A stretch of DNA of 64,000 nucleotides from Acidobacteriota bacterium (GCA_028874215.1 JAPPLF010000080.1:145299-209298); one strand, 5' to 3'. Shown: positions 7,136-47,806, numbered from the stretch's first letter. The notes: a model not told the origin generated them from the letters alone. A program made the numbers and translations.

Positions 7136-7522
7136 TTACACGGCGATTTTCAGGCCCGTGTGCCGCGCCAGTACGCCGAAATCGGAATCATTATTGAGAA
7201 CGGGCACACCGGCCCGAATTGCGATCGCCCCAATCAAGCAATCAATCAACCGGCGCACGGTCTCTCCTTTCAGGCGACAGATCCGGTACAGCGTGGCCGC
7301 ATCATCGTAGTGAGTTGGTTCAGTCGGCAAGACGGTTGCCCGCGCCAACAGGCGACGGAGATCGTTCAGGTGTCTTTCGTTGCGGGCGCCGGCAAGTACT
7401 TCCATGCGGATGGCATCACAGATGGCTATCTCTTCCTCGAGTAATGCGTCGACACGATTGCAGGTCGCCGAGCCCGTGTCGCGCAGGTACTCGATCCAGG
7501 CAGAGGTATCGACAAGTGTCAT
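7136..7522 (-). CDS. vapC: VapC-type PIN-domain toxin
   Basis: 128-residue PIN ribonuclease, the usual VapC length. The acidic catalytic residues are in place: Asp in TLVDTSAWIEYL, Glu in IRMEVLAG, Asp in LIDCLIGAIA and Asp in LNNDSDFGVLA. VapC toxins cleave tRNA or rRNA unless bound by VapB. Its ATG overlaps the end of the VapB gene by 4 nt (7519-7522), the standard coupled arrangement. It is the first module of an accessory region rich in toxin-antitoxin genes. Confidence 0.92.
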   Translation of the reverse strand: MTLVDTSAWIEYLRDTGSATCNRVDALLEEEIAICDAIRMEVLAGARNERHLNDLRRLLARATVLPTEPTHYDDAATLYRICRLKGETVRRLIDCLIGAIAIRAGVPVLNNDSDFGVLARHTGLKIAV

Positions 7523-13975: not shown

Positions 13976-14218
13976 ATGGTCGTCAAGATCACTTCGAAGC
14001 GACAAGTTACTTTTCCAAAGCGGGTGCTGGAGGTCATGGGCGTGGGTCCGGGTGACCAGCTTGAACTGAACGAAGGGCCTGACGGTTTCACGATACGCCC
14101 GAGACGCGTCGACTATTCTCGCCTGGGGACATTACGCAACAGGATCCCGTCGGGACATCCGCCGTTCGATATCGAGAGCTTCAGGAATCAGGCGTATGAC
14201 CCGGCGTTTCGGGATTGA
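13976..14218 (+). CDS. AbrB/MazE-like swapped-hairpin antitoxin
   Basis: 80-residue SpoVT/AbrB-fold protein: MVVKITSKRQVTFPKRVLEVMGV is the classic swapped-hairpin DNA-binding start, then GDQLELNEGPDGFTIRPRR. The C-terminal tail (GTLRNRIPSGHPPFDIESFRN) would bind the PIN toxin encoded next. The PIN gene starts 23 nt before this gene ends, so the two are translationally coupled. The upstream inverted repeat is a likely autoregulation site. Confidence 0.88.
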   Translation: MVVKITSKRQVTFPKRVLEVMGVGPGDQLELNEGPDGFTIRPRRVDYSRLGTLRNRIPSGHPPFDIESFRNQAYDPAFRD

Positions 14219-14591
14219 TACCTCGATCCTGGTCCGTCTCCTTACCGGACATCCGGAATCGGACTTTGAGTATTGCGTGAGCCGGCTGCGCCGTATGCTC
14301 AAACAAGGCTGTGAAATCTTCGCATCGAATCAGGTCATCGGGGAGGCGTATATTGCCGTGCAACACCACTACGGGGTGTCCAAGGCCGAGGCCCGCGCGG
14401 CGATGCTTGATGTACTGAGTAGTGGACTGGTCGCCCCCGAGAACGGTCGATCCGTCGTGGCAGCGCTCGAGGCGTCGGGTGGTCCTGGCCTGTTCGATCG
14501 GTTGATCGCAGATGATTACGCTCGAGCCGGTCTAGAGGTCCTTAGCTTGGACCGTAAGATGACAGGGCTGGACCAGGTCCGTCTACTGTAG
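14196..14591 (+). CDS. PIN-domain toxin paired with AbrB antitoxin
   Basis: 131-residue PIN ribonuclease. Acidic residues are visible in RFGIDTSILVRLLTG, QVIGEAYIAV, GLFDRLIADDYARAG and VLSLDRKM. The pairing with an AbrB-type rather than a ribbon-helix-helix antitoxin sets it apart from the VapBC pair at 7.1-7.7 kb, so it is an independent acquisition rather than a duplication. The likely target is structured RNA such as tRNA. Confidence 0.87.
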   Translation: MTRRFGIDTSILVRLLTGHPESDFEYCVSRLRRMLKQGCEIFASNQVIGEAYIAVQHHYGVSKAEARAAMLDVLSSGLVAPENGRSVVAALEASGGPGLFDRLIADDYARAGLEVLSLDRKMTGLDQVRLL

Positions 14592-38321: not shown

Positions 38322-39149
38322 TCACCCCTTGGTCTGTTTCCGGACGGCCCTCCGGACGCCGGCCCGGAGCAGAGACGGAAACAGGAGTTTGACCAGAGGG
38401 AGGAATCCCATGGCCTTGGGGATGTAGAGGTTCCCTCCCGGTCCCGGAAGCGCTCCTGTGATTCGGCGCGAACACTCGCGGACGCTCACGCCACGCTCCC
38501 GCCGGGACCGATGCGAGGCGGAGCCCAGGGGTGACCCGTCGGCCGAGAGGGCGTGAGCCCGGAGCCGGGTGCTCCGGATCCATCCCGGCATCACGTTCAG
38601 AATGCGGACCTGGCCGTGCAACTCGGTCCGCAACGTCTCCAGGAGACCGTCCAGGGCGTGCTTGCTGGCGGTGTAGCCGCTGTGAAACGGCACGCCCACC
38701 CGGCCCTGGACGGAGGAGATGGCCACGATCATGCCGTGTTGCTTCTTCAAGGCCGGCAGCGCGGGATGGATGCAGTGGACGGCCCCCAGGTAGTTCACTT
38801 CCATGAGCGTTCTGTAAATCTCGACGTTGCGAACCTGGTCGAAGAGGGTCCACATGCTCAGGCCGGCGCTGAGGATGAGATAGTCCAGGGCTCCGAATTC
38901 GCCGGTCACCTTCGAGACCATTTCGCGGCACTGCCGGGCGTCGGTGACGTCGGTGGGGACAACGAGGCAGCCGGCTCCGGCTCGCCGGACTCCGGCGGCC
39001 GTTTCCTGCAGCGAATGCTCCGAGCGGGAACCCAATCCCAGGTTCATTCCCTGGGCGGCCAGATCAAGAGCCAGTCTCTTCCCCAGGCCGGAGGAGGCGC
39101 CGGTGATGAGTCCCGTCTTGCCGTGGAATTTGGATTTTCCTTTTGGCAT
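38322..39149 (-). CDS. Short-chain dehydrogenase/reductase
   Basis: 275-residue NAD(P)-dependent SDR. Cofactor motif GLITGASSGLGKRLAL, catalytic Ser in VAISSVQG and YTASK for Tyr and Lys. The C-terminal RRITGALPGPGGNLYIPKAMGFLPLVKLLFPSLLR has a hydrophobic, positively charged tail like those of membrane-associated lipid reductases. It lies 47 nt downstream of the alkyl-DHAP synthase on the same strand, so it is a candidate 1-alkyl- or acyl-DHAP reductase or fatty aldehyde reductase. That role is inference from context. Confidence 0.87.
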   Translation of the reverse strand: MPKGKSKFHGKTGLITGASSGLGKRLALDLAAQGMNLGLGSRSEHSLQETAAGVRRAGAGCLVVPTDVTDARQCREMVSKVTGEFGALDYLILSAGLSMWTLFDQVRNVEIYRTLMEVNYLGAVHCIHPALPALKKQHGMIVAISSVQGRVGVPFHSGYTASKHALDGLLETLRTELHGQVRILNVMPGWIRSTRLRAHALSADGSPLGSASHRSRRERGVSVRECSRRITGALPGPGGNLYIPKAMGFLPLVKLLFPSLLRAGVRRAVRKQTKG

Positions 39150-39196
39150 GGATCAAGTCGTGAGGTATCTCGTCCCGGCTGCGCGCGGGTGGGCAC

Positions 39197-40939
39197 TCAG
39201 TCGCCCAGGACGTTGTTTCGAATGCCGAAGATATTGTTGGGATCGGTGGACCGCTTGATCTCCTTCAGGAGCCGAATACCCCGGGAAGAGAGAGTGTGTT
39301 TCATGAACCCACTGCGGAGTTTACCGACTCCGTGGTGGTGGGAAATGGACCCGCCCGCATCGATGATGGCCTGGCGCAGTGAATGCTCGATCTCGCTGAA
39401 AACGGTTTCCGGGTCGTCCACGCCCTTGGCGTAGAAGCCGAACATGAAGTAGATACAGACTCCCGTGTGGTAGACCTGGGTGATTCGATAGGAGACATAG
39501 GGGCGTCCCGGCAGTTCCAGCTCTTGGTGCCGGGCCTGAGCCCGGGCCACGACGGCGTCGCAAACCTGGTGTATTCGGTTCCAGGGCACCGAGGTCTCGA
39601 AGGTCTCTCCCAGGATGTGGAAGTCCGACAGGAAGTCCCGGATATAGGCGATGGCGAAGGTGAGCCGATAGCCGCGGCGGCCGTTCTCGGCGCCGCCCGG
39701 CAGGCCTCCGTACTCATTGGCCAGTTTGTAGAGGCCCTTTTCCTGAAAGGCGACCTCTTCCCGGGATCCTTCCATGAGGATGGTGGCGGCGGACATCTGA
39801 TGGGGATCGAACCCCTTGACCTTGAGCACAAAGAATTTCTTCAGCTTGTCCAACCAGGCGGCCGATCCGGTGGGCCTCGGCTTCAGGGCCTGGCCGAAAC
39901 GGAATTGCACGTTGTCCACCAGACGGATGCTGGCGGGTACGAATCTGGTTTCAGCCAAGCTCCGAAGGAAGGCGACACCCTTGGCAAAGTCAGGAAAAAC
40001 GAGGGAGCCATACTTGCGGACCTGGGGCCGGGGATGGATCTTGATGATGGCGCTGGTGATGAGACCCAGGTTGCCTTCGCTTCCAAAGAAAAGACTCTGG
40101 GGCTGCATTCCCATGGAGACGCGGGGAGAGGCCGTCAGATGCTCCACCCGGCCGGTGGGCGTGATCAGCGTCACTTTTTCGACAATGTCCTCGATGTTGC
40201 CGTATCGATTCTTCTTCATCCCGCTGGCATTGGTGGCGATCCATCCTCCCAGGGTGGAGAGCTCGATGCTGTCGGGTTCGTGACCGGAGACGAAACCGGC
40301 CTTCCCGAGCTGGCGTTCCAGTTCCTCCCCCGTGATGCCCGCTTGGACCAGCGCCCGCTGGTTCTCGCGATCGATCCATTCGACGCGATTCATCCGCCTC
40401 ATGTCGACGGAAACGATCATGCGTTCTTCCGACGCCGGAAGTTTCAACGCGCAACTGACGCTGGTGCCGCCGCCGTAGGGAACGAGGCAGACATCTTGTG
40501 TCCGGGCCAGCGCCACCAGCATCGCACAATCTTTCTCCGCTTCGGGGTAGATGACCATATCGGCGACACGGTCCAGTTGGGAATAGACGACCCGGAAGAC
40601 TTCGTCGGCACTGGTCTGCCCGTGGCTGTGGATGAGTCTCTCGCGGTCGTCGAAGGTGTATTGATCGGGACGGTAGAAATTGGCCAGACGACGGCAGAAC
40701 CGGGTGTTCTTTCTGGGGGCGGGAACCGGTTTCGGATCGGCCTCGGGCCGTTTTTTCTTGAAATCGGGATCGAGTCCCAGGACTTCTCTCACGTACGGGA
40801 GGAAGTCTCGCATCTTGTAGCCGCACAGCTCGTAACGGTCACCGGTGAGTGTCACCGAGTCGTCGTCGTTGAGCACGAATCGGGTGTCGGCGAATCCCCA
40901 ACGGTGCCCCCAGATCGGATCGTTTTCTCGACTGGTCAT
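39197..40939 (-). CDS. Alkyldihydroxyacetonephosphate synthase-like FAD enzyme (ether lipid)
   Basis: 580-residue flavoprotein. The N-terminal part (GHRWGFADTRFVLNDDDS, LTGDRYELCGY) aligns with the KWxGWG...LTGKRYPLSG opening of eukaryotic AGPS. FAD domain: CLVPYGGGTSVSCAL, DSIELSTLGGWIATNASGM. The active-site motif SISHHHGVGKLR near the C-terminus has the triple His of AGPS. AGPS swaps the acyl chain of acyl-DHAP for a fatty alcohol, the step that makes ether lipids. A lactate/glycolate oxidase is less likely because of the N-terminal match and the HHH. It is upstream of an SDR; candidate operators lie in front. Confidence 0.87.
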   Translation of the reverse strand: MTSRENDPIWGHRWGFADTRFVLNDDDSVTLTGDRYELCGYKMRDFLPYVREVLGLDPDFKKKRPEADPKPVPAPRKNTRFCRRLANFYRPDQYTFDDRERLIHSHGQTSADEVFRVVYSQLDRVADMVIYPEAEKDCAMLVALARTQDVCLVPYGGGTSVSCALKLPASEERMIVSVDMRRMNRVEWIDRENQRALVQAGITGEELERQLGKAGFVSGHEPDSIELSTLGGWIATNASGMKKNRYGNIEDIVEKVTLITPTGRVEHLTASPRVSMGMQPQSLFFGSEGNLGLITSAIIKIHPRPQVRKYGSLVFPDFAKGVAFLRSLAETRFVPASIRLVDNVQFRFGQALKPRPTGSAAWLDKLKKFFVLKVKGFDPHQMSAATILMEGSREEVAFQEKGLYKLANEYGGLPGGAENGRRGYRLTFAIAYIRDFLSDFHILGETFETSVPWNRIHQVCDAVVARAQARHQELELPGRPYVSYRITQVYHTGVCIYFMFGFYAKGVDDPETVFSEIEHSLRQAIIDAGGSISHHHGVGKLRSGFMKHTLSSRGIRLLKEIKRSTDPNNIFGIRNNVLGD

Positions 40940-41032
40940 CGCTATTTTCCATTTTACTGCTTGTGCCCGGTCATTTGCTGAAGTATGGCCGTGGATCGGG
41001 ACACCGATTCCCGTGTTCTCGTGTGCGAGTGG

Positions 41033-41068
41033 TCACACCGAAAGTGATTTTTCACACTGAACGTGTGA
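41033..41068. promoter_or_regulatory. Two tandem TCACAC operator-like sites upstream of AGPS
   Basis: TCACAC-TGAAC-GTGTGA (41052-41068) is a perfect 6+5+6 palindrome. A degenerate copy, TCACAC-CGAAA-GTGA, lies at 41033-41047, in phase 19 bp away. The sites are about 95-130 nt upstream of the AGPS start codon, in a 230-nt gap. They look like binding sites of a dimeric regulator; the regulator is unknown. Confidence 0.45.
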
Positions 41069-41170
41069 TGCGCAACTCCGGGCGCTTCGAATCAGGAGAG
41101 GCCGTCCGGTCTACCATGGTCATCACACTGCCGCCGTCCGCCAGCGCCCGGATCGGCTGGCGCCATGCGT

Positions 41171-42037
41171 TCAACGGACGAATCGAAACCGGATTTCCCG
41201 GCGGGAGCGCGCGTGCCACCAGGTCTGGAAGTCCTCCGCGGGTCGAATTTCCGGGTTCAGGATACGGGCTCGAAGGGTGACCGGCAGCGGGTCCTGATCG
41301 AAGGGGTACGGATCGACGGCGACTCGGCGTTCGCCTGTCGGAAGAACACGGAGTGAGACTCGATCGTTCCAACACCTGCGCGGAATCTCCCGGAGAGTTC
41401 GCTCCTTGTCTCCACCGAAACAGAGGTGGAGCGACAGCGCGTCGCAGAGTTGCAGCAGGCGGATGTGAGGGTTCAGGTGGCGCGGCTTGACGGCGGCGGC
41501 CCATTCGGGAGCGCGCTTGATGCGTTCCGTGAGCAATCCCTGCAGAGCGTTTTGTTCGGCAACGAACTCCTTGGCTTCTTCCAGTTCTCTGCCTTTGGGT
41601 GGAGGCCACTCAGCGGGGATTCCGAACAGGGGATGGAGGAATGCCGGCGTGTGCCCGGACTGGACGCGTGGCGCGTGCAGCCAGTAGGCGTGCAAGCTGA
41701 TGAGCAGGGCGATATAGGGATGGTGGTGCCGGAAGCGGGATACGCCCAAGTGCCACCGCCGGAGGCCGTCGGACTGTTTGAGGCTCGTCAGATCCAACGG
41801 GAGGCCGTCGGAGGGGTCGATTTGGGGGTCGGCCTCCCACTCCCACCAGCCGTTGTCGTGCTCGGCGATGGCGAGGACGGTTTCGGCTCGCAGCGCTTCG
41901 GGGTCGCGGAAGGGTGCGTATCGACCGGGGCGGGCGAATTCGTGGTTGCCCCAGTGGGCGGCCAGGTAGCCGGCGGCCGCAGCGTGCTCCGGCTGCGAGA
42001 TGCACCAGAGTTCGCCGCCCACCGTGCGCTTGAGCAT
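41171..42037 (-). CDS. DUF3891 family protein
   Basis: 288-residue protein of DUF3891. It has HD-like His-rich motifs: AIAEHDNGWWEWE, SRFRHHHPYIALLISLHAYWL and LLQLCDALSLHLCF. The pattern suggests a metal-dependent hydrolase related to HD domains, but no activity is known for the family. It is on the same strand as the lipid block, 36 nt after the small membrane protein gene. ATG at 42037 gives the standard N-terminus (MLKRTVGGELWCISQPEHA). Confidence 0.82.
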   Translation of the reverse strand: MLKRTVGGELWCISQPEHAAAAGYLAAHWGNHEFARPGRYAPFRDPEALRAETVLAIAEHDNGWWEWEADPQIDPSDGLPLDLTSLKQSDGLRRWHLGVSRFRHHHPYIALLISLHAYWLHAPRVQSGHTPAFLHPLFGIPAEWPPPKGRELEEAKEFVAEQNALQGLLTERIKRAPEWAAAVKPRHLNPHIRLLQLCDALSLHLCFGGDKERTLREIPRRCWNDRVSLRVLPTGERRVAVDPYPFDQDPLPVTLRARILNPEIRPAEDFQTWWHARSRREIRFRFVR

Positions 42038-42073
42038 GGTTCCTCGGAACGGGTGAATCCTGAGGCCGGAAGA

Positions 42074-42277
42074 TCAGCCTTTCGAAAGGCGGCCGGCCCT
42101 CCAGAGCAGGAAGCCTGCCGCTGAAAGCAGGAACAGCGTCAGCAGCAGCTTCACCGGCCAGAGATCGAAGGTGTAGTAAAAGGAGGCCAACAACAAGAGG
42201 CCCACAAGCAACAGGAGCCAACCGCTGTATCGATACTCGCCGCGCCGTTTCCGCTCCTGGCTATCTCCGGTTTCCAT
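42074..42277 (-). CDS. Small two-helix membrane protein
   Basis: 67-residue protein with a charged N-terminus (ERKRRGEYRY) and two hydrophobic helices (GWLLLLVGLLLLASFYY and LLLTLFLLSAAGFLLW). No family recognised. It lies between the START-like and DUF3891 genes on the same strand, so it probably belongs to the same transcript. The clean amphipathic layout supports a real gene. Confidence 0.65.
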   Translation of the reverse strand: METGDSQERKRRGEYRYSGWLLLLVGLLLLASFYYTFDLWPVKLLLTLFLLSAAGFLLWRAGRLSKG

Positions 42278-42368
42278 GCCTTTGGCAGCCTAGCAGCCTG
42301 AAGCCCAAGTCTCTACCGCTCCACCGGTGGCGCGGCGACTCCGTTGTCGGAACCGGGATTCCGCCGAG

Positions 42369-43259
42369 TCAGGATCCCGGAACCGGTTGCAGGCGTTCCC
42401 GCGCCACGCCGGTCAGGAGAAGTCGATGCCGGAGCGAGGCCAGCGTCCGCTTCATGGATGTTCGGGCGATGGATTTCACGAGGGGAGCCACGATCGGCTT
42501 GAAGATGCCGGGGTAGCCGCGGCTCAGGGACAGCGATTCGCATTCCACCACAACGCCGCCGTCGATCTGCTGATATCTCCAGTAGGAATTGAGGCCCCAC
42601 AGGAATCCCCGGTCGTGTCCGGGAACCTTTTCACGCTCTTGGGGAGTGTGGAGTTTCTCCAGCTCGGCGATACGGGTGGCAATGCTCCGGCTTGAGGCCC
42701 GGAACGGATCGTGCCAGCGGTAGTGGACCAGGTGTTCCGTGTTGTAGGCGACGGTGACGATTTTCTTGCGAACCAACTTCAGGTAGATGCGCAGGGAGTT
42801 ATCGTCCCGTTCCAATATTTTCGTTTCCAACACGTCTTTCTGCGGTGGCACATTGGGGTCCGGATAGCGCAGGCGATGGATGACCTGTTCCAGACGGACG
42901 GAAGGAATCAGAATGGTTCCCCGCCAGTGGTGGATCATTCCGCCGGGGACTTTGACGGTTTGGCCCCGGGCATCCTCCGTTTCCATCCGGGCGACCGTGA
43001 CCTGACCCGAACGGACCCGTTGCCAAGTCACCCGCGCTTCGTTCATCCGACCGAATTCGTGCCCGAGGAACCTCTTCTGCGATGCCAGCTCGTTGCCGAT
43101 TCTTTCCTCGGTGAGCCGAACGTATTTGTCCCAGGCCAGCAGGGTCTCAGGTTTCAACTCGGCTCCGTGAACCCTTGAGCCCGGGAACAGGGGATACCCC
43201 GCGGCCAGGACGATGGTTGCCAGCGCCAACCACACCTTGATCGATGAAATTGGTCTCAT
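42369..43259 (-). CDS. Exported START/SRPBCC-like protein (paralogue 2)
   Basis: 296-residue secreted protein; signal peptide SIKVWLALATIVLAAGYPLF. It is paralogous to the 46647-47606 product: both have LKPET at the mature start, then a long alpha-beta domain with KKI-TV-NTEH, and the shared block DRGFLWGLNSYWRY (DRGFMWRLNAYWHL in the other). The fold pattern resembles START/SRPBCC lipid-binding proteins, and the late amphipathic helix VKSIARTSMKRTLASLR fits that. Lipid binding is inference. It starts 1 nt after the GtrA stop. Confidence 0.72.
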   Translation of the reverse strand: MRPISSIKVWLALATIVLAAGYPLFPGSRVHGAELKPETLLAWDKYVRLTEERIGNELASQKRFLGHEFGRMNEARVTWQRVRSGQVTVARMETEDARGQTVKVPGGMIHHWRGTILIPSVRLEQVIHRLRYPDPNVPPQKDVLETKILERDDNSLRIYLKLVRKKIVTVAYNTEHLVHYRWHDPFRASSRSIATRIAELEKLHTPQEREKVPGHDRGFLWGLNSYWRYQQIDGGVVVECESLSLSRGYPGIFKPIVAPLVKSIARTSMKRTLASLRHRLLLTGVARERLQPVPGS

Positions 43260-43260
43260 T

Positions 43261-43686
43261 TCATTTCTCCTTGGCGGCCTGTCCGAAGACCAGCCAATGG
43301 CTGGAAAAGTAGTTCAACGTGGAGCAGGAGGCGATGGCCATCAGGTTGGCCGGCAGGTAGTGCACATTCAGGCTGGCCACCAGGAGCTCCATCAGAAACA
43401 GGTTTTGGACGATGGAGACCGTGCCGACGGTCATGTTGAAGCGGAGCAACCGGCCCAAGACGCTCGTTTCCGCCGTTGCGGTGCGGTCCGACCACGTCCA
43501 ACGCTCATGCCACCAGAAGTTGTGCAACACCGCCATCTCCACGGCCAGGGCGGTGGCCGGCAGGTAGTGCAGGTTCCAGACACTGCGCACAAACATGAGA
43601 ACGGTGATCTGAACCAATACTCCCATCAGGCCGACGGCGTTGAATCGGGCCCATCGGATCAAGTGTTCCATCTCGGGATTCCTCAT
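43261..43686 (-). CDS. GtrA family membrane protein
   Basis: 141-residue protein with four hydrophobic helices, the GtrA/flippase-like family that moves polyprenyl-linked sugars. RWARFNAVGLMGVLVQI, EMAVLHNFWWHERWTWSDR, GRLLRFNMTVGTVSIVQNLF and LNYFSSHWLVFG are typical. The ATG at 43684-43686 overlaps the stop of the CDP-alcohol transferase gene (ATGA). A later ATG at 43671 is possible. Coupling to a phosphatidyltransferase suggests lipid-linked glycan handling. Confidence 0.87.
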   Translation of the reverse strand: MRNPEMEHLIRWARFNAVGLMGVLVQITVLMFVRSVWNLHYLPATALAVEMAVLHNFWWHERWTWSDRTATAETSVLGRLLRFNMTVGTVSIVQNLFLMELLVASLNVHYLPANLMAIASCSTLNYFSSHWLVFGQAAKEK

Positions 43687-44459
43687 TTCCGGTTGCGGTG
43701 AGATCCGGTGAAGGCCGATCTCATGGGACCAAATCCGGTGGAGGGGAAACGTGGCAGGCTGATGGGAAGGGGCCGCTGGAAACGTGGCCTGGGTTCGGCG
43801 CGGCACAGCCTTCGCGTGTGCCGGAGGGCGGAGACGGCGAATGTCAGGGCCAGACCCAGGATGCCGGCCATACCGCCGACGTCGAAGAGGTTGAAGGACC
43901 CCAGTTCTCCAAGTCCGACCACCGGCTTGTAGAAGAGAAGGACCGTGCCTGTGGCCAGCAAGAGTCGCAGCTCCGTCGGTCCGACCTTCAGGAAGGAGAG
44001 CCGAAATACGCCGAGGACATGGGTCGCGAGATAGATCTCGGCGGAGACCAGCAGATACGCGATCAGCAGAGCGAGTCCGACGATGGGGCTCATGAATTCG
44101 GATGCCGCCAGGCCTCCCAGCAGAAACAAGGTTCCGGCCAGATCCAGGACGTGATCGACGTAGTACCCGTAACGCGGCCTCTGCTGGTTCCGCACCCGGG
44201 CCAGCGTGCCGTCCAGACTGTCTCCGAACCAGTTCAGAACGAGGCCTGCCACGACCAGGAACAAGGCCCGCCGGTCCCAGGAAGCCGCGCAGTAGGAGAG
44301 GCCCACTCCCAGCATGGCCAGGACTCCCAGAAGGCTCAGATGATCGGCGTTGACCCAGGCCGGGAGCCGCCGGGCGATCCACACCAGGAGTCTCCTTTCG
44401 GCGGAGGCCAGGATGCTGTCGTGATGCCGTACGTGTTTGAAACCCTTTTGTCTCCTCAT
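43683..44459 (-). CDS. CDP-alcohol phosphatidyltransferase
   Basis: 258-residue inner-membrane enzyme. The diagnostic motif D-x2-D-G-x2-A-R-x8-G-x3-D-x3-D is complete, in FGDSLDGTLARVRNQQ and GYYVDHVLD. It joins a CDP-activated lipid to an alcohol head group. Six or so helices follow the motif. A strong GGAGGAG lies 5 nt before the ATG at 44457-44459. The head-group alcohol is unknown; inositol phosphate or glycerol-phosphate types are the usual options. The C-terminal tail (from RRLCRAEPRPRFQRP) is basic and extends past the last helix. Confidence 0.88.
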   Translation of the reverse strand: MRRQKGFKHVRHHDSILASAERRLLVWIARRLPAWVNADHLSLLGVLAMLGVGLSYCAASWDRRALFLVVAGLVLNWFGDSLDGTLARVRNQQRPRYGYYVDHVLDLAGTLFLLGGLAASEFMSPIVGLALLIAYLLVSAEIYLATHVLGVFRLSFLKVGPTELRLLLATGTVLLFYKPVVGLGELGSFNLFDVGGMAGILGLALTFAVSALRHTRRLCRAEPRPRFQRPLPISLPRFPSTGFGPMRSAFTGSHRNRK

Positions 44460-44563
44460 GAAGCTCCTCCGTGATTCACTTCCGCAGCCGAAAACCCGGC
44501 GGGTGCGTCCCGGCAGATATCGGCCGCACTGAGAGGGAATGTGAGAACGGCGAGAAAAAGGGC

Positions 44564-46084
44564 TCAGGAGGATCGGTCGGATGAAGGTGGGACCGGTTCG
44601 AAGACGGCCCGTTCGGTGGCCGGCTCGACCAACAGGAAGACGACAGTGTAGCTGACGGCCACGGCGGCCAGGCATCCGGCCAGGAGTTGTTCGTGGGTGA
44701 CGATGAGGGCGGCGCCGAGGAGGAGGCAGAGGGAGAAGAGTCCATCGACCCGCCGTTTCCATCCGCGGACCCGGTTCAGTTCCGCGTCGATGGCGGAACG
44801 GTTGAACCTTGCCGTGAACAGGAGGTGGGTACGGATGGTGCCGTTGCAAAGGGCACAGCCCAGCACCAGAAAGAAAAGACCCAGGGGCAACGCCGTGGCG
44901 ACCGGCGCCTGGGAGGCGGCCTGCTTGAACTTCCAGGCGCCGAAGACCATCATCGCGTAAAAAAGGACCACGGCTGACTGGTGGAACACCCACCAGCCGC
45001 CGTGAAGCGATGTACGGGATCCTGGAGTGTCCCTGGGTTTGCCTGCGATCTTCGATTCGAGGCGCTGCAACTGCGCCAGGAGTTCTTCGGTGGATTGAAA
45101 ACGGCCGTCCGGATCCTTCTCGAGACAGCGCGCGAGGATCGGTTCCAGCATGGACGGCGGCCCGACGGCGTCGGATCGGCCGGGTCTGCCCTCCAGGATC
45201 CTGGCCACCGTCACCAAAGGTGTCTTGCCTTCGAACGGGTGGCGGCCCGTTGCCAGTTCGTACAGCAACATTCCGAAAGAGAAGAGGTCGGAGCGGAAGT
45301 CGGCTTCCTGTCCCTCCAACTGCTCGGGAGACATGTAGACCGGGGTGCCGAGAACGGTTCCTTCCTGCGTCAGGCGCTGGCTGTGGGAGGGTTCCAGCGT
45401 GGGAAGCGCCAGACCGAAATCGACGATTTTCAGATTCCCCTGCGCATCGAGTAAAACGTTTTCCGGTTTGAGATCCCGATGGACCACTCCGTTGGAGTGG
45501 GCGGCCCTGAGGCCCTGGCACACCTGAGTCGCCACCCGGAAGAGTTCGGGGAGGGGAACAGGGCCCTGCTCGATCCGCGATCGCAGATTCTCCCCCTCGA
45601 CGTACTCGCCGGAGATATAGAGCCCACCGTCAATTTCTTCCAAGGCATAGACGGCCGCGATGGCGGGGTGATTGAGGGAAGCCGCGACCTTGGCCTCGCG
45701 GCGGAGCCGCCGCCGTTGTTCGACGTCGCGGCCCACAAGTGGAGAGACTGCCTTGAGAGCCACGGTACGGTCCAGCCGCGTGTCGACGGCGCGGTAGACG
45801 ACCGCCATGCCACCCCGTCCCGCCTCGCCGAGAATCCGGTACGGGCCCAGGGTGTCCCCTGCCGTCAGGAGACTGGCGGCCGTTTCGACGCCGGCGGGTT
45901 GAAACAGGTTCCCATCCAGGAAGGCGGTTTCAGGGTCGTGGTGAGACAGAAGCGACAGGACCTCGCGGGTCAGCTCCGTGTCGGGGGAACATTCCCGCCG
46001 GACAAAGTCCTCCCGCGATTCCGAATCGTGTTCCAAGGCGGCCTCGAAGATCTCCTTGACTCGCTGAAACGTTTTCGGGTTCAT
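44564..46084 (-). CDS. Ser/Thr protein kinase with C-terminal membrane helices
   Basis: 506-residue kinase. The domain spans about residues 81-340: P-loop GEAGRGGMAVVY, catalytic Lys 111 in VALKAVSPL, HRD at 202-204 (VVHRDLKPENV), DFG at 222-224, and TPVYMSPEQLEG. After about residue 360 come four hydrophobic helices with no PASTA or other sensor domain, and the N-terminal 70 residues are the leader common in acidobacterial kinases (FQRVKEIFEAALEHD). It overlaps the sigma factor gene by 4 nt (ATGA). The pair is expected to control a nearby or extracytoplasmic response. Confidence 0.9.
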   Translation of the reverse strand: MNPKTFQRVKEIFEAALEHDSESREDFVRRECSPDTELTREVLSLLSHHDPETAFLDGNLFQPAGVETAASLLTAGDTLGPYRILGEAGRGGMAVVYRAVDTRLDRTVALKAVSPLVGRDVEQRRRLRREAKVAASLNHPAIAAVYALEEIDGGLYISGEYVEGENLRSRIEQGPVPLPELFRVATQVCQGLRAAHSNGVVHRDLKPENVLLDAQGNLKIVDFGLALPTLEPSHSQRLTQEGTVLGTPVYMSPEQLEGQEADFRSDLFSFGMLLYELATGRHPFEGKTPLVTVARILEGRPGRSDAVGPPSMLEPILARCLEKDPDGRFQSTEELLAQLQRLESKIAGKPRDTPGSRTSLHGGWWVFHQSAVVLFYAMMVFGAWKFKQAASQAPVATALPLGLFFLVLGCALCNGTIRTHLLFTARFNRSAIDAELNRVRGWKRRVDGLFSLCLLLGAALIVTHEQLLAGCLAAVAVSYTVVFLLVEPATERAVFEPVPPSSDRSS

Positions 46085-46641
46085 GCGTTCAACTCGCGTC
46101 GCAACCAAGCTCGGGAGAGCGCCCACCAGCGTTTGGTGGTGGCAGGGGAGATACCCATGACCTCGCTGGTTTCCGCCAGTGTCAGGCCTCCGAAGAACCT
46201 GAGCTCGACGAGTCGGGCCTGTTTCGGATCCAACTCGGCGAGAGCCCGCAGTGCTTGGTCCAGAGCCATGAAATCGATGGATCGCGCATTCTGGCCCAGA
46301 GTCTCGTCGATGAGAGTCACCGCATGCTGCCCGCCGCCCCGCTTCCGGGCCATTCTCGCTCGTGCCCGTTCCACCAGGATCTGCCGCATGGAACGGGCCG
46401 CGATACCCAGCAAATGGGCTCTGTCTTTCCAATGCACCTGCTTCTCGCCGAGGAGTCGAAGGTACGCCTCATGGACCAGGGCCGTGGCGGGCAGCGTCTG
46501 GCGGGCCTCCCGGCGCATGTAGTTGCCGGCCAGCCTTCTCAGTTCCTGATAGACAATGGGGAAGAGTTGAGAAAGGGCGTTCCCATCTCCGGATCTCGAC
46601 TCGTGGATCAGCCGCGCCATTGCCTGGGGATTCTCAGGCAC
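46081..46641 (-). CDS. ECF sigma factor (SigK/Rhodopirellula-type, Sigma70_ECF)
   Basis: 186-residue sigma factor. Region 2 lies near RRLAGNYMRRE and LVHEAYLRLLG; region 4 helix-turn-helix is LRFFGGLTLAETSEVMGIS, ATTKRWWALSRAWLRREL. This subgroup is regularly encoded next to Ser/Thr kinases without a classic anti-sigma factor. It starts 5 nt after the START-like gene and is coupled to the kinase, so signal input through phosphorylation is the likely control. Confidence 0.9.
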   Translation of the reverse strand: MPENPQAMARLIHESRSGDGNALSQLFPIVYQELRRLAGNYMRREARQTLPATALVHEAYLRLLGEKQVHWKDRAHLLGIAARSMRQILVERARARMARKRGGGQHAVTLIDETLGQNARSIDFMALDQALRALAELDPKQARLVELRFFGGLTLAETSEVMGISPATTKRWWALSRAWLRRELNA

Positions 46642-46646
46642 TACCG

Positions 46647-47606
46647 TTACTCCTGGCCGCCGGGGATCGGTGGCGCATTGCCCCCTTTGAACCGACGGCC
46701 CGCGGGAATCATATCAACCGGTGTGACCGTCGCAGTCGCGTGGGACCTCGCTTCACCACGGATATACGCCCAATCGACCCATCGTTCCGCATTCCCCGCT
46801 CCGCTTCGGAGTCTGTCCGTCACGGCCTGGCGAGTGCCTCGCAGCGTGTTTCGAAGAGCCTGGCGGGGGACGCTTGTCACGAGCGGTTTGAGCATCCAGC
46901 GGAGCGCAAAGGGAATCTTCCGGGAGAGAGAAACGGCCCAACACTCGGTGGCCACCCCGCCCTCCCGCTCCTCCAGGTGCCAATAGGCGTTCAGTCGCCA
47001 CATAAAGCCTCGGTCGTCGCCTACCGGCAATTCCCGCTCCTTGGGTTTTCCCGCATCCTTGACCTCGGCGATTCTTGTGCTGCGCGACACACCACGCCAG
47101 CGTTTCGGAGACACCTGCGAATAGACGACCTCGTGTTCGGTGTTGAAGATCACGGTCAGGATCTTCTTCATTCTGAGGCGCTGGTAACCTCGGAGACTGT
47201 ACCCGTCGCGACTCAGGAGTCTGGAATCCAGAACTTCCGGGTACCATTCCCGGTGGCGGTCGAAATCCATCAGCACCGACAGGACGTCGGCGGAAACCGC
47301 GCCGGGAATGAAGACGGCTCCCAGCCAGACGTTGATCCTGGCGCCTGGGACTTCAGGCAGGTCTTTCAGTTCGTCGATCAGGATCCGGCCCCGCTTCAGC
47401 GCGGCCCGGTTCTCGAGGTCCTGGTCAGACCAGAGGAACGGCATTTCCCCGCTGAATCGCTTTTCAAGACTCGCCTCCAGGTCTTGGACATACCGGTCGT
47501 AACCCCGGACTGTTTCGGGTTTCAGCTTGGCCCCGGCTTGCGCCGATTCCCCCAGGGACACGAGGAGAATGACGGCCGGGAGAAGCCGCAGACATCTCGA
47601 AATCAC
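46647..47606 (-). CDS. Exported START/SRPBCC-like protein (paralogue 1)
   Basis: 319-residue secreted protein. The GTG at 47604-47606 begins a clear signal peptide (VISRCLRLLPAVILLVSLGESAQAG); the frame is open further to 47759 but that part is not signal-like. The body has DFDRHREWYPEVLDSRL (typical of START/SRPBCC proteins), KKILTVIFNTEHEVVY, DRGFMWRLNAYWHL and a C-terminal helix MLKPLVTSVPRQALRNTLRG. Paralogue of 42369-43259. It is the first gene of the sigma-kinase operon, so it may be the sensor or main target of this module. Confidence 0.75.
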   Translation of the reverse strand: MISRCLRLLPAVILLVSLGESAQAGAKLKPETVRGYDRYVQDLEASLEKRFSGEMPFLWSDQDLENRAALKRGRILIDELKDLPEVPGARINVWLGAVFIPGAVSADVLSVLMDFDRHREWYPEVLDSRLLSRDGYSLRGYQRLRMKKILTVIFNTEHEVVYSQVSPKRWRGVSRSTRIAEVKDAGKPKERELPVGDDRGFMWRLNAYWHLEEREGGVATECWAVSLSRKIPFALRWMLKPLVTSVPRQALRNTLRGTRQAVTDRLRSGAGNAERWVDWAYIRGEARSHATATVTPVDMIPAGRRFKGGNAPPIPGGQE

Positions 47607-47806
47607 AGAATCCCGCTCCCGAAGACGATGCTGACGTTCTCCTGCCCGCAGCCGGTGCGCCAAGCCTGGGCTTTCAGCGGAAATAGTACGATATTCTTCC
47701 GAAGCGGGGATGCAGGATCGACGCTTAACTGCCAGCCGCCGCGTCTGCGCATCCACCATTGGAACGCTTCGGTCGAGTGTGTGATGATTTCCATTGCGGG
47801 TTGCCC

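Follow-up and report, generated by a model that had tools for sequence, protein, structure and literature searches.

A conserved START, CDP-alcohol transferase and GtrA gene set with an adjoining kinase/sigma pair in Acidobacteriota, and its AGPS–SDR neighbour in one genus

Introduction

Ten genes that follow one another on the minus strand of an Acidobacteriota genome raise the question of whether they encode one regulated system for an unusual lipid or more than one. An earlier note, made from the sequence alone, had read them as a single ether-lipid system, with START-like proteins, a CDP-alcohol phosphotransferase, a GtrA protein, alkyl-DHAP synthase (AGPS) and an SDR under the control of a sigma factor/kinase pair. 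We find instead that the block consists of two systems, i.e. a core lipid module and AGPS with the SDR: the lipid module and the sigma/kinase switch of that proposal are supported, but its ether link through AGPS and the SDR is not. According to published work, what elb and agps genes do in Acidobacteria has not been demonstrated conclusively (PMC11868695). No paper naming the present gene combination was found in a literature search, most subscription journals being beyond its reach; the constituent protein families are already known.

Results

The analysed stretch (hereafter the window) comprises 64,000 nucleotides of contig C80 of a 5.7 Mb genome. Genes were called by codon bias and named from Pfam, NCBIfam and PDB, which recovered all ten genes in the order and on the strand previously given (Table 1). 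The earlier note had also described most steps between them as tight. ATGA overlaps occur at two junctions only (ECF/kinase, 46081-46084; transferase/GtrA, 43683-43686), GtrA is separated from START B by 1 nt, and START A from the ECF gene by 5 or 26 nt, depending on the start codon. However, the widest gaps are 104 nt (kinase/transferase) and 231 nt (DUF3891/AGPS), and others measure 91, 36 and 47 nt, so the wording was generous. Scans for sigma-70 promoters and terminators gave no signal above that of shuffled sequences. Elsewhere in the window, an AbrB-like/PIN-like pair (13976-14591) and a lone PIN-like gene (7136-7522) were picked out by eye.

Table 1. Features of the ten-gene block and its candidate control sites, in window coordinates
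Feature	Position	Strand	Evidence or remark
Candidate promoter GGAAGAATATCGTACTATTT	47681..47700	-	Upstream of START A; near-invariant across the genus (four genomes)
START A, secreted START-like protein, 319 aa, with a hydrophobic segment at the N-terminus	46647..47606	-	36% identity to START B; same family across Acidobacteriota
ECF sigma factor, ECF43-like	46081..46641	-	PF07638/TIGR02999, 198 bits; alternative ATG start at 46620
Membrane Hanks-type Ser/Thr kinase, 506 aa	44564..46084	-	PF00069; HRD and DFG intact; C-terminal hydrophobic segments
CDP-alcohol phosphotransferase, 258 aa	43683..44459	-	PF01066; DSLDGTLAR...GYYVDHVLD motif intact; CEPT1/CPT1 closest to its model
GtrA family membrane protein, candidate flippase	43261..43686	-	PF04138, 1e-19; conserved partner of the transferase
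START B, secreted protein with predicted START fold, 296 aa	42369..43259	-	Model pLDDT 89
Small membrane protein, 67 aa, two-helix	42074..42277	-	No family match; in this position in the genus only
DUF3891 protein	41171..42037	-	PF13030, 4.6e-49; in this position in the genus only
Palindrome TCACAC-N5-GTGTGA followed by AAAAATCAC, candidate separate control site	41044..41068	-	In the 231-nt gap before AGPS
AGPS, alkyl-DHAP synthase	39197..40939	-	5e-166 to guinea-pig AGPS
SDR, PRK06181 type, 11beta-HSD1-like, candidate alkyl-DHAP reductase	38322..39149	-	PF00106; NF004825; pairs with AGPS in other genera

Neither START-like paralogue reaches the gathering score of any Pfam family, and a search of the START B sequence against PDB returned nothing significant. 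The START fold, which had previously been assumed, is supported by the confident START B model, which resembles CERT (Foldseek 4e-8; VIA Z 13.2, rmsd 3.7-3.8 over 191-197 residues) and the bacterial Xanthomonas protein 3QSZ (VIA Z 14.4, rmsd 3.0 over 164 residues), in VIA lists that leave room for other families; lipid binding is putative. The predicted fold is common to these proteins over about 160-200 aligned residues. Unlike CERT and 3QSZ, members of the Acidobacteriota family have a signal-like N-terminus and are coupled or fused to GtrA. We infer a periplasmic site for the START protein.

The transferase carries the CDP-AP motif D1xxD2GxxAR...GxxxD3xxxD4. Its nearest solved structures are CEPT1/CPT1, both by profile (8.7e-8) and by comparison of its model (pLDDT 86; Foldseek 1.7e-5), in which they lie ahead of PIPS by a small margin (8ERO, VIA Z 18.4, rmsd 3.1 over 212 residues; PIPS 5D92, VIA Z 17.1, rmsd 3.0 over 195 residues). 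Residue H103 is invariant in 26 sequences and aligns, as a base after D3, with His155 of CEPT1, which, like one other base, has been proposed to activate the DAG hydroxyl. In contrast, the CEPT1 choline/cytidine contacts Glu65, Asn86 and Glu151 are replaced by Ala-like, Asp and Tyr/Phe residues, and the bacterial core spans about 220 residues compared with about 370-400 in CEPT1/CPT1. As these three contacts are not kept, we call the transferase CEPT-like rather than file it as a CEPT; judging by sequence, its chemistry may be CEPT-like. No gene for CDP-head-group synthesis was seen within the module.

We rejected a reading of this enzyme as a PI-phosphate synthase in view of a distinct PIPS-like transferase encoded elsewhere in the genome (PDB PIPS 7e-20; NCBIfam PIPSynth 126 bits). 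The window transferase has no PIPSynth match at 0.01 (its best relative reaches 33 bits, with a cut-off of 170) and shows a weak match to archin_ph_syn (37 bits). The host genome also encodes PssA and MIPS. The PIPS-like gene is located between lolA-like and mlaD-like genes (L213:7676-10549, contig C61), i.e. in a lipid-synthesis/transport neighbourhood. Two further kinds of transferase locus were observed among the relatives: an SDR takes the place of START after the transferase–GtrA pair in L107 and L108 (genomes G042 and G057), and the transferase match ends ~110 residues in, beside ECF-like fragments, in L228 and L229 (G111 and G075), where the shortened gene reflects either a broken gene or an assembly fault.

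We compared the distribution of these genes across genomes. In a GTDB scan, 188 stretches encode START relatives, of which the best 80 were kept, giving 78 loci; the records are nearly all Acidobacteria. A transferase or GtrA gene lies within 1.5 kb of START in 43 of the 78 best loci, and an ECF gene plus a kinase gene within 4.5 kb in 15, all of them among the 43 (Fisher 6e-5); these counts are lower bounds, as contig ends truncate loci, and related genomes do not count as independent observations. Neither partner is near START in the other 35 best loci, of which some are cut by contig ends and some are paralogues, and many transferase–GtrA pairs occur without START. Among 120 genomes, relatives of START B are present in 29 and the transferase in 61 (42 of them strong), with the transferase in 25 of the 29 START genomes versus 17 of the 91 others (Fisher 7e-11, not corrected for phylogeny). 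Neighbourhoods rebuilt from contigs place transferase–GtrA pairs phylum-wide, often with START. The module genes are repeatedly found together within Acidobacteriota, in several layouts: the ECF–kinase pair lies upstream on the same strand in G010 and G013 and is convergent in G030, G032, G037 and G101; in G034 the kinase is visible on the shorter locus. Among the loci inspected, the conserved core contains no recurring glycosyltransferase. The proposed lipid-handling unit of START, transferase and GtrA, adjoined by the ECF/kinase pair, is conserved far outside the host genome. Of the neighbours expected for START, the transferase is often found near it, but AGPS in one genus only.

GtrA itself is clearly assigned (71 bits, with a PF04138 gathering cut-off of 26). 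GtrA and START lie in a single stop-free frame at 13 of the 78 best loci, and about eleven of these 13 carry at the joint a hydrophobic stretch that resembles a former signal peptide; two such cases also occur in the first set of relatives. These one-frame genes are the strongest link between GtrA and START. They suggest that START lies outside the inner membrane, provided that the number of GtrA helices is even. GtrA proteins are known from work on surface glycans, not on phospholipids, and deletion of the GtrA gene BT_1524 in the inositol-lipid cluster of B. thetaiotaomicron left inositol lipids unaltered (PMC9246714). No outer-membrane partner of the module was found.

The sigma factor lacks the acidic DAED motif in sigma2.2 and has PATA instead, with Thr53 (segment TLPATALVHEAYLR), and the adjoining Ser/Thr kinase gene overlaps its gene by 4 nt. 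All 15 module sigma factors inspected in the GTDB loci retain the Thr, and 14 of them have xxTA; the equivalent Thr is the phosphorylated position in EcfP and EcfK (PMC8999054, PMC13147305). Our ECF43-like label combines TIGR02999/PF07638 matches over cut-off, the kinase neighbour and the sigma2.2 features. The ECF43 pairs EcfP–PknT (Vibrio) and EcfK–PknS (Xanthomonas) have the same kinase neighbour, absence of the acidic motif and conserved Thr (PMC8999054, PMC13147305), but their targets are polymyxin resistance and T6SS, whereas the window pair adjoins a lipid module as its candidate regulon. A generic sigma/kinase kit is rejected for the host genome because the window sigma factor is its only TIGR02999 member over cut-off. 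The promoter word did not define a sigma regulon: GGAAGAATATCGTACTATTT occurs only once in the genome even when up to 3 mismatches are allowed, and no shared promoter word was found ahead of the transferase gene. The sigma factor may regulate its own expression. On genome context, a conserved lipid module and a kinase/sigma switch that looks dedicated to it are well supported.

AGPS matches guinea-pig AGPS with 557 bits over 566 residues, and its conserved R339, R434, Y497 and H534-H536 align with R419, R515, Y578 and H615-H617, which we take to be the catalytic residues of the guinea-pig enzyme. The SDR, a candidate alkyl-DHAP reductase of the DHRS7B type, has only 11beta-HSD1-like and FabG-like matches in PDB. 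Sequence comparison makes a convincing case for the two as a putative alkyl-DHAP-synthase pair. AGPS is present in 12 of 297 genomes of the phylum and stands beside the module only in the window's genus (four close genomes, in which the flanking genes are also syntenic); likewise, it lies near START in three of the 78 best GTDB loci, all of this genus. The SDR follows AGPS in G006, G007, G009, G011 and G016, the AGPS–SDR pair stands apart from the module in other genera, and G007, G009 and G011 have AGPS without the transferase. We rejected AGPS as a core member of the module for its rarity and its lack of linkage outside the genus. AGPS–SDR is a separate, rarer pathway, and the ether link to the module is one genus's neighbourhood. 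A genome search with the TCACAC-N5-GTGTGA pattern gave a single other match, with three mismatches. In two members of the genus, the repeats before AGPS are partly degenerate.

An ElbD-architecture protein of 1481 aa, with the order FAR-ACS-ACP-acyltransferase, is encoded on contig C66 (L236:5591-10036, minus strand), unlinked to the window; the relative G016 has an ElbD-like gene some 1.5 kb upstream of its AGPS–SDR pair. By its sequence, the ElbD-like protein supports a putative ether-lipid capacity of the host. No GNPAT/PlsB-type acyltransferase (PF19277) was found in 40 genomes. The Myxococcus AGPS operon MXAN_1676-1674 likewise contains AGPS with a reductase-type gene, and Myxococcus ElbD is matched by the ElbD-architecture protein (PMC9131029). 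Unlike these Myxococcus genes, the window holds the AGPS–SDR pair only, the ElbD-like gene being unlinked.

Discussion

The recurring gene set is probably responsible for making a membrane lipid, moving it to the far side of the inner membrane and passing it to a carrier outside. That the core is such a make-flip-carry line, switched by the kinase/sigma pair and with AGPS–SDR as a second unit, has in our judgement about an even chance of being correct. The catalytic, flipping, transport and regulatory steps, all of which we infer, would be as follows: (i) the CEPT1-like transferase would join a CDP-activated head group to an acceptor of the diacylglycerol or ceramide type, giving a phospholipid in the inner leaflet; (ii) GtrA would bring this phospholipid or a precursor to the outer leaflet; (iii) periplasmic START, fused to GtrA in some genomes, would pick up the lipid and ferry it towards the outer membrane; and (iv) the membrane kinase would phosphorylate the ECF43-like sigma factor at Thr53, whereupon the sigma factor would bind RNA polymerase and direct transcription of the operon. 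In the second unit, AGPS would put a fatty alcohol in place of the acyl chain in acyl-DHAP, the SDR would subsequently reduce the ketone, and the ElbD-like protein encoded elsewhere would carry out alcohol and acyl steps.

Other readings of the block have to be weighed against this line. It could be an envelope-glycan or sensing unit, in which the transferase would provide a lipid anchor, GtrA would flip a polyprenyl-phosphate sugar, and START would sense or store a lipid and report to the kinase. The GtrA proteins described so far serve surface polysaccharide synthesis (PMC9246714), and a kinase-coupled ECF factor responds to envelope stress, i.e. polymyxin (PMC8999054); yet no glycosyltransferase recurs in the conserved core of the loci inspected, and the fusion partner of START is GtrA, not the kinase. 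We consider this reading improbable, at most marginally ahead of the two that follow. An inositol-lipid unit resembling BT_1523-BT_1524, which is about as improbable, would have the transferase make PI-phosphate, GtrA aid inositol-lipid export and START act as carrier. It draws on the published adjacency of a CDP-alcohol transferase and a GtrA gene in the B. thetaiotaomicron cluster BT_1522-1526 (PMC9246714), on the presence of MIPS in 81 of 120 relatives, on PIPS structures almost as close as CEPT1 and on the weak archin_ph_syn match. However, the window's genome, unlike that cluster, has the separate and clearly PIPS-like gene, MIPS is unlinked to the module, and the relative G005 has the transferase with no MIPS match; moreover, the window block contains START and the kinase/sigma pair instead of a MIPS, AUR1-like or PgpA-like gene.

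About as improbable, too, is a single ether-lipid regulon, in which AGPS–SDR would build the backbone, the transferase add the head group and START transport the product, with the sigma/kinase pair governing all ten genes. The biochemistry would fit, because eukaryotic ether lipids likewise pass from AGPS to CEPT-type enzymes. The genus is uniform in strand and gene order across its four genomes, and the transferase is present in 9 of 12 AGPS genomes versus 33 of 108 others (p 0.004, not corrected for phylogeny). Against this stand the rarity of AGPS in the phylum, its adjacency to the module in one genus where the flanks are syntenic as well, the AGPS–SDR pairs apart from the module in other genera, the three genomes with AGPS and no transferase, and the 231-nt gap with its own palindromes that precedes AGPS.

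For the ether-lipid side, the separate AGPS–SDR–ElbD-like set offers a route that can be tested in Acidobacteriota. This phylum has been linked to the brGDGT climate proxies, whose pathway has been described as unclear (PMC11868695). The make-flip-carry line, taken at its widest, would be an undescribed phylum-level export line in which GtrA acts as a phospholipid flippase and passes its cargo to periplasmic START, as a fusion or as a separate partner, under the switch of a kinase-phosphorylated sigma factor; we regard this wider claim as possible but rather unlikely. The natural one-frame GtrA–START genes make a direct test of flip and hand-off feasible. The proposal bears on two wider questions, namely by what route lipids pass through the Gram-negative periplasm and what cargo GtrA proteins move. 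If true, a START-based periplasmic shuttle would exist alongside Mla/Lpt-type systems.
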